From a virus: a stretch of 23,385 bases of DNA. The notes beneath the pieces were generated by a model, which was not told the origin of the DNA, made no database searches, and worked only from the letters and a program-made list of their open reading frames with translations. The stretch's first letter is position 1. Each line of letters begins with the position of its first letter. Of this stretch, positions 2,441-23,043 are shown in pieces. The stretch is from the IMG/VR virus record IMGVR_UViG_3300043395_001653, positions 1-23,385 of that record. One strand, given 5' to 3'. A program made the translations under genes and the position numbers.

Positions 2441-2617
2441 ATGAAAAAATACGCAATGATTCAAATTGATGCCGAAATACATCAAATTTTGAAGGAGTTT
2501 TGTAAAGAGAAAGGATACAAAATAAATGGGTTGGTAGAAACCCTTATAAAAGAAAAGGTAGAAGCTTCAAAGAAACCTCTACCTAAAAATGTATTACCAG
2601 TAAATTCTAAAAGTTAA
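2441..2617 (+). CDS. Small ribbon-helix-helix-like protein
   Basis: A 58-codon plus-strand frame encodes a protein starting MKKYAMIQIDAEIHQILKEF. A short beta strand (about residues 3-8, YAMIQID) is followed by two helices separated by a Lys-Gly-Tyr turn (KEKGYKINGLVETLI), the pattern of Arc/MetJ-type ribbon-helix-helix DNA-binding proteins. A basic, Pro-containing tail ends in NSKS. The gene is too short for a standard ORF cut-off and is the only convincing plus-strand gene here. Its leader, AAAGAAGTAATG, resembles that of the minus-strand gene starting at 21534. Its last 11 bases overlap the 3' end of the Mre11-Rad50 gene tail to tail. A role as a transcriptional regulator, perhaps at the 2353-2440 divergent gap, is inferred only. 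Confidence 0.62.
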   Translation: MKKYAMIQIDAEIHQILKEFCKEKGYKINGLVETLIKEKVEASKKPLPKNVLPVNSKS

Positions 2618-2625
2618 TTTTAGAA
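2605..2625. repeat. Inverted repeat spanning two convergent stop codons
   Basis: TTCTAAAA (2605-2612) and TTTTAGAA (2618-2625) form a perfect 8-bp inverted repeat around a GTTAA loop. The TAA stop of the plus-strand gene lies in the loop, and the TAG stop of the nuclease gene lies in the left arm. On the plus strand a T-rich run follows within about ten bases. The stem is AT-only except for one C-G pair, so it would be a weak bidirectional terminator at best; it may also occur by chance in AT-rich DNA. Confidence 0.4.
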
Positions 2626-5600
2626 AATCCGTTTTCTTTTTTAATTTCAATCAATCCATCTACAATATCTCTCATTTGTTCTAAGTGAGAAATTACCCAA
2701 ATGAAATCGAATTGAGTTTTAAGATACTGCATCATCATAAACAATGAAGATAGGTTATCTGCATCCAATGTACCAAACCCTTCATCTATTACTAAGAAGT
2801 TAGGTCTAGGTAACCCACATATGTTAATTAGAGCCACTCTAATCGCTAATCCACTAATGAACTTCTCCATACCACTACACATCTCTAAAGCCCACTCCTG
2901 GTCTTCGTAAACTATCTTAGCGTTAATGTTCTTTCCATCGGTATCCATTGAAAGTGAAAAGTCCACAACCTGAGCTAAGATATTGTTTACTTCGTTCTCA
3001 ATAACAGGCATTGCTTTGGAAATCAATTCGTATGGAACACCATCTTTCTTAACCGCATCTAAATAGTAAGTGTATAAGGTATTCTTATGTTCTAATTCTT
3101 TAACCTCATCCATCTTATCTTTAGTTGTTTTAATAAAAGATTCAATAGAACCAATAGTTCCAGTTACTGAAAGAATTTGTTTATTTGTATCTTTTATTTT
3201 CTTTTCAATTTCTTTCTTTTCATCTTCCAACCCTTTGATTTGTTCGTTCAATTCACCATTCTTTTTAATTGTGGCTTCATTATCAAAGTAACGTTTCTTA
3301 TCAGCCTTTACACCTTCTAATTGAGTTTGCAAAAGTTGTGATTGTGTTTCCAATCCATTTAATTCAGCTTCGGCCTTTTCCTTAACCACCACACCTCTAG
3401 TGTATTTGTTTCTTAATTCAACTAATTTAGCCCAAACATCTTCTACTTCCGAAAATGGTTCGGTTGCTTTGATTAAAGCCTGATGTGCAATATTAAGAGT
3501 TTCTAATTGAGCTTCTTGTGTTTTAACAACTTCTTTAGTTTGAATAGCATCCTTTACGAATACATTGTTCATACAAAACTGACAATTAGGGTCATACTCA
3601 TGTTGCTCTAAATGTTTTAGTTTTTCTAAATTAGATTCATATTGAGATTCTAACTTATCTATTTGTTGTTGAACTTCTACAATTTTACCCTTAGCCAAAT
3701 CCCACTCCTTCTTAGCTTCATCTATTGGTATTCCGTTTACTTCTGCATGTTCGTTAATAGATTGAGAAACCTCTCCTAATAACCCTATATATTCGTTTAT
3801 TTTAGCTATTTTAGTTTCCTTATCACTTTCATTGGTTTGGATTTTGCGTTCAATAGTGCTCTCCGCATTCTCTAATGCAACCAAATCTAACTTACTATCT
3901 ATTGGGGTGATAGATTTACTCAATTCCGTAATTTGGTTTTGAATTCCATCTTTACTTTCATTCTGCTCTCTTTGGGTTTTGTTAAGTTCTTTCAGAGTTT
4001 CCTTTTGGGATTTCAAGTCGGTTTCTTTTTGGGCTAATTCAGTCGTAAAATCCGTCCTTTTGAAATTTCTGATTAGTGCAGCCACTTCCTTAATTTCCTC
4101 ACTTGCCGTTTCATATAACTTATCAAATATATCAAGTCCCATAAACTGAGCCAACAAGTCCTTTCTCTCCGATTGTGATTTATCAATGAATAGAGCATTG
4201 TTACCTTGTAGTGATAGGGCAGTCATAACGAAATCCTCATATCTCCCTACATATCCCTCAATGATTTGATTGGTATCCCTTCTCTCCGTTCCGTTAAGTG
4301 ATTCTCTTTCCGTTCCATTGGTTCTCCAAAATTCCACATCTACCTTTACGTTCCTTCCCTTATTAATAGTTCGGGCTTCTCTACGGATTGAGTATGGAAT
4401 ACCTTCTACTTCGAAATCTAATTGGCAGTGGAAGTCACTCTTTCTATTGTTCATAATGTTAGCTGCCTTAAAGGCTCTACTACATCTATCGAACAGGCAA
4501 AAGGATATTGCATCAAATAGGGATGATTTACCTGCTGCGTTTGGTGCGAATAAGCCCATTAGTCCATTTACTTTGTCAAAATGGATTACATTGTCTTCAC
4601 CGTAACTGAACATATTGGAGAATTCAAATCTTACCGGCTTCCATTGTACGTTTCTTGTCAGCTCATCCAATACTATTCTACTATTAATATCTTTGTTTAG
4701 TGATTGCACTCCTGCTACGTCTTCCGCAGTTGCGAATGGCATCATCCTTTGAATGTAATCAGATATAAGTGAGTTTTGATAATTTACATCGGTAATATCT
4801 TCTAACTCTAATTGATTATCTCTATCACCAGTCTTTTTCTTTTGGAAACTATCTGTCCTTATGGTTGTAAAATCATCTACACCATATTTTATTTTGATTT
4901 CGGTGATTGCTCTTTTTGTATCTGCCGCATCGGTATCAGAGAATCTTACCCTAAGCCTTGGATGAACAGGTAAATCAGTAACGTCAGGAACAACTCCTGC
5001 GATAATATCCATGGTGTAATAACCATAATCGTTTTTAATATCAACTTCTTCATATGTTAGTGTTTCTAAATCCCAAACTAAAAAACCATGCTTATCTAAG
5101 GTTTCTCCAAAGTTTTGTTGTACCAATGAACCAGCGTACACACACTTACATCCTTTAGGTGAAATCAATTCTTGTCTTTTATGTATATCACCCAAAAGTG
5201 CCAAATGGAAACCATCAAATAAATCGGTTGTGAAATGCCTACTACTTACAACATATCCCACATCGGTTTGTGAATGGTCAACCGGTCCGTGAAATAGTGC
5301 AACTTTTAATCTGGCTGATTGTAAACTAAAATCATCAGCCATTATCCAATTATCTTTGTTATCAAAAATACTGAATACTGAAAATGCTACATCATCTACC
5401 CAATGTACCGAAGTATCTTTTAGATATGTAAAGTTAGGTAGGTTAAGAGCTTCTACAATTGGTGAAAGAACATCCAATCGGTCTTGGTTGTTCATATTAC
5501 AATCGTGATTACCAGCAATAAGAATTGTTGGGCATGTATTTGAACATTCGGTAAATAACCAACTAATCTCTTTCACTAATTCAGGTGACATTTCTAATTT

Positions 5601-5762
5601 AGCATGTGCAATATCACCAGCTAAATAAATGATTGAATCTTCAGTTCCTCTTTTACGGATTTCTTCAAACATTTTTTCAAATACTTGCCTAAACTCTTTG
5701 TGTCTCTTTACATTACGGATGTGTATATCCGCAATATGATAAATTCTTTTTAATTTACTCAT
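2607..5762 (-). CDS. Fused Mre11-Rad50 (SbcD-SbcC; T4 gp47-gp46) nuclease
   Basis: This 1051-residue protein carries both subunits of the SbcCD/Mre11-Rad50 recombination nuclease in one chain. Residues 1-240 hold the Mre11 phosphoesterase motifs: DIH (12-14), GDIAH (49-53), GNHD (84-87), FHG (157-159) and GDIH (191-194). A linker reaches about residue 370. The Rad50 ATPase follows, with Walker A APNAAGKS (406-413), Q-loop Gln 519, a long coiled coil (about 560-900) with a zinc-hook CQFC (727-730), signature CSGMEKF (962-968), Walker B FLVIDEGFGTLD (989-1000) and the H-loop His 1026. All key residues look intact. In T4, gp47 and gp46 are separate proteins that process DNA ends for recombination-dependent replication and degrade host DNA. 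The start overlaps the primase stop as ATGA, indicating translational coupling. Confidence 0.93.
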   Translation of the reverse strand: MSKLKRIYHIADIHIRNVKRHKEFRQVFEKMFEEIRKRGTEDSIIYLAGDIAHAKLEMSPELVKEISWLFTECSNTCPTILIAGNHDCNMNNQDRLDVLSPIVEALNLPNFTYLKDTSVHWVDDVAFSVFSIFDNKDNWIMADDFSLQSARLKVALFHGPVDHSQTDVGYVVSSRHFTTDLFDGFHLALLGDIHKRQELISPKGCKCVYAGSLVQQNFGETLDKHGFLVWDLETLTYEEVDIKNDYGYYTMDIIAGVVPDVTDLPVHPRLRVRFSDTDAADTKRAITEIKIKYGVDDFTTIRTDSFQKKKTGDRDNQLELEDITDVNYQNSLISDYIQRMMPFATAEDVAGVQSLNKDINSRIVLDELTRNVQWKPVRFEFSNMFSYGEDNVIHFDKVNGLMGLFAPNAAGKSSLFDAISFCLFDRCSRAFKAANIMNNRKSDFHCQLDFEVEGIPYSIRREARTINKGRNVKVDVEFWRTNGTERESLNGTERRDTNQIIEGYVGRYEDFVMTALSLQGNNALFIDKSQSERKDLLAQFMGLDIFDKLYETASEEIKEVAALIRNFKRTDFTTELAQKETDLKSQKETLKELNKTQREQNESKDGIQNQITELSKSITPIDSKLDLVALENAESTIERKIQTNESDKETKIAKINEYIGLLGEVSQSINEHAEVNGIPIDEAKKEWDLAKGKIVEVQQQIDKLESQYESNLEKLKHLEQHEYDPNCQFCMNNVFVKDAIQTKEVVKTQEAQLETLNIAHQALIKATEPFSEVEDVWAKLVELRNKYTRGVVVKEKAEAELNGLETQSQLLQTQLEGVKADKKRYFDNEATIKKNGELNEQIKGLEDEKKEIEKKIKDTNKQILSVTGTIGSIESFIKTTKDKMDEVKELEHKNTLYTYYLDAVKKDGVPYELISKAMPVIENEVNNILAQVVDFSLSMDTDGKNINAKIVYEDQEWALEMCSGMEKFISGLAIRVALINICGLPRPNFLVIDEGFGTLDADNLSSLFMMMQYLKTQFDFIWVISHLEQMRDIVDGLIEIKKENGFSKINF

Positions 5763-6694
5763 ATGTTATTTAACTTTGCCATCACCAAATCATCCCATCC
5801 AGTTTCTTTGGCATCTTTTAATATTTCATTTACTTTTTTAAAACCCATTTCACCTGCATCTTTATCAGTTGGTATAATGTTCTTTACACTTATACCATTC
5901 TTAATAAACCATTCAGTATGTTTAGTGGAATCTTCTACGGCATCGGAATCTAACATAATTGTTACATCCTTAACACCCTTTTCCATAATTTTATTTTTGA
6001 GTTTGCTAAGTAAGAATTTACCTAACAATGGAATTACATTTCTTTTAACTGAGAAAGAATCAAATACACCTTCAACCAAAATAATAGGTTCGTTCCAATT
6101 AATCATATTCTCAAATACAATTACATCTCTGCTAATTGGTGGATTCTTATACTTCATCCTCTCATCTTCATAAAAAGAACGAGCTACAAAGTAATTAAGG
6201 TCACCATTATCATCATAAGATGGAATGATAACTCTACCACCATAAAGGCCATCTTCACAATAACCAATATTATATTTAACAATATCGGCTTTTGTGATAC
6301 CTCTTTTATTTAAATAGTGTAATGCTTGGTTATACAAAGGATTAATACTCTTTGGACAGAAATATAATTGTTTGAATTCTTTTGGTAATTGTAATTTTGC
6401 TACAAATTCCTCTTTTGCATCGTATTCTGGTTCATCACCATATACATCCTTTACAACAGATATATCCCTAAGGTCTACATTTAATTTACGAAGAAGGGAT
6501 GATATACTTCTACCCTTAGAATCACATACCCAACAATGCCATCTTTGAGTATCTAAGTTAATTTGTAACTTCTTTTTATGGTGATTACAAAATGGACAAT
6601 GGTGTGCCTGTTCATTTCCCTTTAAGGATGAACCAACTCCCAATGCCGAGTCTAATATAGTGATTATTTTTAATTTGTTCTTACCAGATAGCAT
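5759..6694 (-). CDS. DNA primase (zinc finger plus TOPRIM, T4 gp61-like)
   Basis: This 311-residue protein has the domain order of DnaG-type primases in compact phage form. An N-terminal zinc-binding motif is seen as HCPFC (32-36) and WHCWVC (52-57), giving two CxxC pairs. The TOPRIM catalytic domain follows, with VEGVFD (207-212, acidic Glu 208 and Asp 212) and the DSD motif (249-251). The length is close to that of T4 gp61. It would make RNA primers for lagging-strand synthesis at the phage replisome, with a helicase gene that is not in this window. It is the first gene of a two-gene unit with the Mre11-Rad50 gene, which starts within its stop codon. A Bacteroidetes-like promoter lies just upstream at 6713-6744, so it is likely expressed separately from the tail genes. 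Confidence 0.9.
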   Translation of the reverse strand: MLSGKNKLKIITILDSALGVGSSLKGNEQAHHCPFCNHHKKKLQINLDTQRWHCWVCDSKGRSISSLLRKLNVDLRDISVVKDVYGDEPEYDAKEEFVAKLQLPKEFKQLYFCPKSINPLYNQALHYLNKRGITKADIVKYNIGYCEDGLYGGRVIIPSYDDNGDLNYFVARSFYEDERMKYKNPPISRDVIVFENMINWNEPIILVEGVFDSFSVKRNVIPLLGKFLLSKLKNKIMEKGVKDVTIMLDSDAVEDSTKHTEWFIKNGISVKNIIPTDKDAGEMGFKKVNEILKDAKETGWDDLVMAKLNNI

Positions 6695-6964: not shown

Positions 6965-7372
6965 TTAATATATATCCTTTCGGAAGAATTTTCCCATTAA
7001 ATTTTCATTAATAGATTGTGGGTCCATCAAAACATCTAATTTGAATTGCCACCAAACTTCCCAATATGTAAGTGATTTTTTACTAAAGCAGAATTGAATG
7101 ATTTCTCTTTCAAAATCTTCCCCTCTACCTTCTTTTACTTCGTTTTTAATCCATTCGTTTGATGAATAGTATTTCTCCCAATCAGAAGCCTTACGAACTA
7201 CTCTTTTACGAACTTTCCCCTTTAGGGGTTTTAATCGGCGGGTTGAAGTGAGTGATTTTTTACCAATATAGAATTTACCAGTTGGAGTGTGTACAATCTT
7301 ATAGACAAACCCAACCGCACCCTCTGGTGTATTTTCTTCCGTAACAATATTTCCCTTAAATTTCCAAGACAT
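6965..7372 (-). CDS. GIY-YIG-like nuclease
   Basis: This 135-residue protein carries GFVYKI (21-26) and GKFYIGKKS (32-40), the two halves of the GIY-YIG motif. An Arg-rich segment follows (RRLK at 45-48), then DWEKYYSS (64-71), and a Glu (105) in TYWEVWW sits where the metal-binding Glu of the family is expected. Short phage proteins of this type (GIY-YIG followed by a SDWxxYY segment) are widespread and usually annotated as putative endonucleases. It could be a free-standing homing endonuclease or a DNA-processing enzyme; the sequence does not decide. No DNA-binding C-terminal module is present. It lies between two small unknown genes, with a 3-base gap upstream and 12 bases downstream. Confidence 0.72.
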   Translation of the reverse strand: MSWKFKGNIVTEENTPEGAVGFVYKIVHTPTGKFYIGKKSLTSTRRLKPLKGKVRKRVVRKASDWEKYYSSNEWIKNEVKEGRGEDFEREIIQFCFSKKSLTYWEVWWQFKLDVLMDPQSINENLMGKFFRKDIY

Positions 7373-22059: not shown

Positions 22060-23043
22060 TTATACCTTGTCTGTATAAAATCCCCAATATTCCCAATGCC
22101 ACATCTCATCAACACCATTACCATCTGCCAATCTATATGGATTATACCACCCATATTTAGGCGCATTGTTGGATAGCCATCTATATAAAGATGATGTTTC
22201 TCTACCTTGTTTATTAACACTAGGTACACCACTACCACCAACTGCTCTATACAATTCACCAAAATCTAGTGCTAATCCCCAACCATGTGGAGATTTACCA
22301 GCTTTAGCTATTGTAGAACCACTACCCAAAGAACTTTGATGCGATACACTTCTATAAGCAGATGTTATTGTCCATCCAATACCAGCAGATTTTGCAGCTG
22401 CTTTAAGTTTAAAATATTGATTTGCTGCTTCTGGATGTAGTAGATACCAACCACCCGTACCTTTGTATGTATATTCTGCCCTACCACCCTTTTCAACACC
22501 AATCATAGTATCTGGTGGTAAAGTTCCATTTTCGTATTTACCTTTCCAATCAGGTGGTGCTGAAACTCCAATAGCTCCAACTTGAGCAAATATTTTAGCT
22601 GGTGGGCCACTTTCTATCTTTTTTAAATTTTCAGTTGAAGGTTGTTTTTCTTCTGGTTTAAAATCGGTAGGTGGTTCACCTTGTATAGGAGTGGGTGCTG
22701 ATCTTGGTGCGTAATCAAAATTTGTTGTAGCTTGTTCGGCTGGTTTGGCTTCTATTTTTTTATCACTATCTACCTTGCCATTATTTTTTTCATGTTCATC
22801 TACACCCTTTCCTTCTGATTCTGGTGAATCATCGGATGGTGGTATTTGTGGTGATGGGGTTGATGGTGTTACTGTATAACCAGACCAAATAACCACACCT
22901 GGTCCAGGAGTTGGTACAGGTACAGTTGGATATAATGATATTGTTGAAGCTACTCCCGAAACTGTAGTTAAATGCTGAGTAGCATATTGAATAAAATCAT
23001 CAATTATTAAAGAAGTATTTTTTGTAGGGTCTATTATTGACAT
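22060..23043 (-). CDS. Tail-associated M15 (VanY-like) peptidoglycan peptidase
   Basis: A 327-residue protein. An N-terminal anchor-like region (1-55) is followed by a long, disordered, Pro/Glu/Lys-rich linker (56-145). The C-terminal M15 metallopeptidase domain (about 190-327) shows SAYRS (228-232), SPHGWGLALD (251-260, with zinc ligands His 253 and Asp 260) and EMWHWEY (313-319, with ligand His 316). This is the VanY/D,D- or L,D-carboxypeptidase fold; phage members cut peptide cross-bridges of the cell wall. No signal peptide is seen, which suits a virion-borne enzyme. It lies 10 bases after a second M15 gene and directly before the baseplate operon, so a tail-tip lysin is more likely than a holin-linked endolysin, though that remains possible. 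Confidence 0.86.
   Translation of the reverse strand: MSIIDPTKNTSLIIDDFIQYATQHLTTVSGVASTISLYPTVPVPTPGPGVVIWSGYTVTPSTPSPQIPPSDDSPESEGKGVDEHEKNNGKVDSDKKIEAKPAEQATTNFDYAPRSAPTPIQGEPPTDFKPEEKQPSTENLKKIESGPPAKIFAQVGAIGVSAPPDWKGKYENGTLPPDTMIGVEKGGRAEYTYKGTGGWYLLHPEAANQYFKLKAAAKSAGIGWTITSAYRSVSHQSSLGSGSTIAKAGKSPHGWGLALDFGELYRAVGGSGVPSVNKQGRETSSLYRWLSNNAPKYGWYNPYRLADGNGVDEMWHWEYWGFYTDKV

Follow-up and report, generated by a model that had tools for sequence, protein, structure and literature searches.

A single gene for both halves of SbcCD

The gene described here encodes, in one chain, a Mre11/SbcD nuclease followed by a Rad50/SbcC ATPase, the two parts of a universal machine for processing DNA breaks, and we regard this identity as confirmed. 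It lies in the window, which is the whole stretch of viral DNA that was analysed (23,385 bases, the full extent of the source record), as a single intact open reading frame on the minus strand at 2607-5762, with an ATG at 5762, a stop at 2607 and 1051 codons specifying 1051 amino acids. The plus strand over 2607-5762 is stop-rich, and no long frame was found there in the ORF scan. Pfam matches of the complete protein comprised Metallophos (residues 6-172, 5.5e-9), AAA_23 (residues 382-602, 2e-16) and SMC_N. When the two halves were searched separately, residues 1-365 matched the SbcD-like family PHROG_100 (2.2e-29), and the remainder matched the SbcC-like family PHROG_77 (1e-57). The first-pass annotation of this DNA had placed one 1051-residue chain, gp47-like and then gp46-like, at these coordinates, listing five phosphoesterase motifs, the ABC ATPase motifs and a zinc hook. 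Its coordinates are correct, the minus strand is added here, the intact ORF and the family match of each half bear out the domain order, and all of the listed motifs were located in the protein. All features of the gene given below are on the minus strand.

Nuclease half

The phosphoesterase (nuclease) domain with motifs I-V occupies residues 1-241 (5040-5762), as assigned from Pfam, motifs, alignment, the structural model and a fold match to SbcD. The motifs are D12/H14 (I), D50/H53 (II), G84-N-H-D with N85 and H86 (III), H158 (IV), and G191-D-I-H with D192 and H194 (V). Across 81 aligned proteins, D12, H14, D50, N85, H86, H158, D192 and H194 are invariant, and H53 is nearly so. Residues 5-303 match Staphylococcus aureus SbcD (7dog_B) with a Z of 25.1 and an rmsd of 3.3 over 276 residues. 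Within this structural match lies the capping domain at residues 242-304 (4851-5039), delimited by predicted secondary structure. It is followed by a low-confidence loop at residues 305-325 (4788-4850; pLDDT < 50 at 305-319) and by a helix-loop-helix at residues 326-360 (4683-4787; predicted helices 326-340 and 346-360), which stands at the position of the Rad50-binding helix-loop-helix of Mre11. By analogy with the published account (PMC3175470), this helix pair would be the one that binds Rad50. The protein thus has the features of the Mre11/SbcD class: the metal-ligand motifs, a predicted capping domain and a C-terminal helix-loop-helix.

ATPase half and zinc hook

The Rad50 N-terminal ABC lobe covers residues 373-543 (4134-4646) and was identified from Pfam, from its motifs (Walker A APNAAGKSS and a Q-loop) and from the fold match to the E. 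coli SbcC head. Predicted structure places the ascending arm of a coiled coil at residues 544-719 (3606-4133) and the descending arm at residues 734-904 (3051-3563). Between the arms is the zinc hook CQFC at residues 727-730 (3573-3584), recognised by motif and with both cysteines invariant in the 81 proteins. The C-terminal ABC lobe, at residues 905-1051 (2610-3050), carries SGME, VIDE, GTLD and SH, and was assigned from motifs, alignment, predicted structure and fold match. The ATPase motifs run from Walker A (A406-PNAAGKS) and Q519 to the S963-GME signature, the VIDE Walker B, the GTLD D-loop and the S1025-H H-loop. In the same alignment N408, G411, K412, C727, C730, S963, G964, M965, E966, D993 and E994 are invariant, Q519 and H1026 are nearly invariant, and Walker A residue 410 is variable. 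Residues 374-1051 match the E. coli SbcC head (7yzo_D) with a Z of 30.8 and an rmsd of 3.2 over 348 residues. The class features of Rad50/SbcC, namely ABC motifs divided between two lobes with a coiled coil inserted between them, and a CxxC hook between the arms, are therefore all present.

Two positions depart from the familiar pattern. Motif V reads GDIH, whereas E. coli, T4 and Bacillus phage Grass have GHxH, and the ABC signature is SGME, in contrast to SGGE/Q elsewhere (SGGE in E. coli). Judging from these residues, the activity may differ in detail from that of SbcCD.

The joint and the predicted fold

An AlphaFold2 model built from 35 sequences of the window and related loci had a mean pLDDT of 82 and a pTM of 0.46. 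It orders the chain as nuclease domain, cap, loop, helix-loop-helix, linker, N-lobe, coiled-coil arms around CQFC, and C-lobe; given the whole-chain pTM, the model describes each half and not their mutual packing. The inter-domain linker in the predicted structure is about 12 amino acids long (residues 361-372, 4647-4682). In the Thermotoga complex, the Mre11 C-terminus has been argued to lie ~28 A from the Rad50 N-terminus, a gap for which a linker of 9-12 residues would be enough (PMC3175470), and the predicted linker agrees with the length expected from that geometry. It had been proposed that a fixed 1:1 fusion would change how the complex assembles or closes on DNA, and this is possible. 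However, because the predicted length is about that needed, the geometry of the normal unfused complex is the simpler expectation, and the linker length suggests that the fusion keeps ordinary SbcCD geometry.

Conservation of the single frame

We found at least 598 confirmed relatives in a search of viral contigs, which puts the fusion far outside chance. Without exception, full-length relatives at 66-100% identity carry it as one uninterrupted reading frame. Other queries brought in more distant loci, of which 72 have the full-length single frame and most of the remainder are truncated by a contig end. A full-length relative was not found in the plasmid collection, while prokaryote genome contigs held only three loci, all on short MAG contigs (3.8-11.4 kb) that may be of viral origin. 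In 8/8 related phage records, among them the complete 190-kb genome of phage Mel-JY01, one convincing SbcC match and one convincing SbcD match fell in the same ORF, and further matches were few, weak and partial. The expectation of similar fusions in other environmental phages is thus strongly borne out, by the viral-contig relatives and by cultured phages alike, and the search for single chains covering both domains that had been proposed as a check finds them in metagenomic contigs and isolated phages.

These relatives also bear on whether the chain was created by a sequencing or assembly error that lost a stop or shifted the frame between two genes. Lone contig fragments may contain errors, and one distant relative (L124) has a frameshift-like split, yet the same frame recurs in independent contigs from many metagenomes and in the isolated phage Mel-JY01, and the joint itself is under purifying selection. 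In four close pairs, dN/dS was about 0.01-0.24 in every segment tested and about 0.13-0.2 in the capping/linker region, so that purifying selection runs across the Mre11-Rad50 joint. The conserved single frame in independent relatives excludes the joining error that the first-pass annotation had named as a refutation, and we give an artefact of this kind next to no credence.

Several loci show other arrangements. In the 484-kb huge phage LR756508.1 (L083:3953-8178), the fused gene is interrupted within the Mre11 part, just past motif V (GDIHKRQ), and resumes at FSGSLIQQN. The interrupting ORF (305 aa) has Cys-pair motifs and a TnsA-like/PD-(D/E)xK endonuclease end (PF08722, 5.8e-6), and the interruption looks like a gene-splitting homing-endonuclease insertion; Rfam gave no match in the window, L082 or L083, and with it no sign of a group I intron at this split. 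The split in L124 (1983-5224) is near residue 220, close to the insertion site in L083. In Yersinia phage YerA41 (L204:1405-4442), the annotated gene comprises Mre11, the Rad50 N-lobe and the coiled coil, with the C-lobe in a separate ORF that overlaps it by 4 bases, while Yersinia phage vB_Yru_GN1 (L205) has one ORF where YerA41 has two. The ATPase of YerA41 may be genuinely split, or the second ORF may only reflect a difference in sequencing. Distant fusions in the 735-kb huge phage LR756501.1 (L084:3001-6600) and in L195 have a motif II without the usual His, and their ATPase D- and H-loops are apparently degenerate (NRLV; EH replacing SH).

Gene neighbourhood

Directly upstream of the fusion is a DnaG-like primase gene (5759-6694, minus strand; PHROG_47, 8e-51), whose TGA stop overlaps the fusion ATG as ATGA. 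A primase was upstream of the fusion in 78/79 loci, with the four-base ATGA overlap in 69 of the 78, and the fusion is probably translated in tandem with it. A SegE-like GIY-YIG endonuclease gene was observed near the primase (6965-7372, minus strand; PF19835, 4e-26). A relative is upstream in 35/79 related loci, a count from which short flanks may hide some, and the gene seems to come and go among loci. A candidate Bacteroidetes-type promoter (TTG..TAnnTTTG) upstream of the primase, at 6743-6713 on the minus strand, was a perfect match but was rejected, as the total of such matches in the window equals chance. On the other side, a 58-aa ORF on the plus strand (2441-2617), with no Pfam match, converges on the 3' end of the fusion with an overlap of ~11 bases.

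The window also holds T4-like baseplate genes, encoding gp25 and a second baseplate wedge protein, and it is therefore probably a fragment of a contractile-tailed phage. Adjoining the baseplate genes is a gene (22060-23043, minus strand) with a C-terminal VanY-type D-Ala-D-Ala carboxypeptidase domain (PF02557, 3e-17), whose product is likely a tail-associated lysin.

Probable role in DNA end processing

From its motifs, its predicted fold and the analogy with T4, the protein is very probably a single-chain SbcDC of the Mimivirus R555 kind, in a tailed phage, that would resect DNA ends as T4 gp46/gp47 do. Most likely it is the only SbcCD or gp46-47 equivalent of the phage, processing DNA ends for recombination. 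What speaks for a T4-like function is the gene context and the single copy in related phage records. Two fusion chains would dimerise via Mre11 and via the ATP-bound Rad50 heads, as in SbcCD, with each Mre11 helix-loop-helix packing against the base of a Rad50 coiled coil, which the ~12-residue linker would permit within the same chain. ATP-gated clamping of ends would then allow blocked DNA ends to be trimmed or opened, leaving 3' single strands on which RecA could drive recombination-dependent replication and repair, as gp46/gp47 allow in T4. Fusion would chiefly secure 1:1 co-production and co-inheritance of the two activities.

It is improbable that the fusion has left end resection for host DNA degradation, for defence or counter-defence, or for nuclease-free bridging of ends. 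In favour of such a change, an Asp in motif V and the SGME signature set these proteins apart from T4 and E. coli without exception, and most of the published fusions in cellular organisms occur alongside a normal set and may serve other functions (PMC3175470). Against this, the remaining catalytic residues are all kept, the fusion is the sole SbcCD found in the eight related phage records, a primase adjoins it, and a RecA homologue was present in 3/3 of the related phage records searched.

We also considered whether the Rad50 part is freed, by cleavage or by internal initiation at Met 340/341 or 384, which would restore a conventional two-protein complex. ATG is 93-99% conserved at 340, 341 and 384, but these methionines lie within conserved helices or strands and Met has a single codon, and there is no excess of synonymous conservation at 331-395. 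A Shine-Dalgarno sequence precedes Met 340 in 14% of relatives, Met 341 in 3% and Met 384 in 0%, against a background of 4%; this test is uninformative, because the true start also lacks one (it is present in 1% of relatives), and the internal absence does not argue against such starts. Among the features described here, none pointed specifically to cleavage. We judge separation of the two parts to be quite unlikely.

Comparison with known systems

In 2011, Yoshida, Claverie and Ogata described Mre11/Rad50 fusions: Mimivirus R555 and twelve further proteins, whose sources were bacteria, plasmids, eukaryotes and Bacillus phage 0305phi8-36. They also found R555 relatives to be abundant in viral metagenomes from aquatic settings, where primases and other phage genes were often neighbours (PMC3175470). 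The novelty implied by the first-pass annotation does not hold, since that work already covered this domain order, an example from a phage and the aquatic viral metagenomes. Its statement that T4 and bacteria keep two genes is correct for T4 and E. coli but fails for the published fusions of Clostridium kluyveri, Anaerostipes, Ruminococcus and Deferribacter (PMC3175470). In our literature search, no later paper turned up with phage Mre11/Rad50 fusions as its main subject. The long contigs and the isolated phage confirm what the 2011 study had only from a few metagenomic fragments: in environmental phages, single-chain Mre11-Rad50 commonly stands in for separate gp46/gp47. Such a one-chain enzyme is convenient for structural work.

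That the window protein fits the R555-type description, a kind known since 2011, is well supported: Mre11 comes first, in one chain, with a linker able to reach Rad50. We compared R555 by its published description and the giant-virus relatives by structure; R555 was not in the trees. The two share the domain order, the capping and helix-loop-helix region, a similar linker length, GDxxH in motif II and an Asp (D192 here) in place of the motif V His (PMC3175470). The R555-type metagenomic relatives and the window gene have in common a phage primase as neighbour and abundance in aquatic viruses. R555 differs in being 1351 aa long, with a longer coiled coil, and in belonging to a giant virus of amoebae, compared with 1051 aa in a tailed phage. 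The best matches in the viral structure library were giant-virus proteins of similar full length from Tupanvirus (25% identity over 1313 columns), Harvfovirus, Yasminevirus, Terrestrivirus and Catovirus, and lower down came, among others, proteins of Tenacibaculum phages pT24 and PTm1 and of a Listeria phage. The viral fusions may conceivably form a distinct Mre11-Rad50 lineage that has moved between tailed phages and giant viruses and whose obligate pairing in one chain goes with GDxH and SGME, giving a reaction unlike that of SbcCD; we consider this doubtful.

Among isolated phages, Microcystis phage Mel-JY01 encodes a full-length fusion (WWT39521.1, 'AAA domain containing protein') with 40% identity at 100% query coverage. 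It shares the neighbourhood of a primase-like protein and a GIY-YIG gene, but has a small extra ORF between primase and fusion and belongs to another phage lineage. A second fused group comprises Rhizobium phage RHph_TM30 (959 aa), Vibrio phage 1.031.O, Acinetobacter phage Ab1-TPeters and Thermus phage phiLo. These are likewise Mre11-then-Rad50 single chains with a GD[IV]H motif V, but they are remote in sequence (about 20% for TM30) and have the classical LSGGQ signature. Their annotations read 'SbcD-like', 'coil containing', 'SbcC-like' or 'endonuclease subunit'; as several database records name one half only, counts of SbcC and SbcD in phages are skewed. In each of the two trees the window protein's clade forms a single group, with support of 96 for Mre11 and 94 for Rad50. 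The two fused phage groups stand apart in the trees, and a single common fusion was not rejected (AU p 0.06 and 0.32).

E. coli SbcCD and phage T4 gp46/gp47 are the same two enzymes, with the same folds and motifs, encoded by separate genes. In E. coli, sbcD lies immediately before sbcC and the two share 4 bases, while in T4 two small genes lie between 47 and 46. Phages Grass and Romulus also have separate genes: nuclease, ATPase, a small gene and primase are clustered on the same strand, an operon layout from which the fusion could plausibly have arisen.
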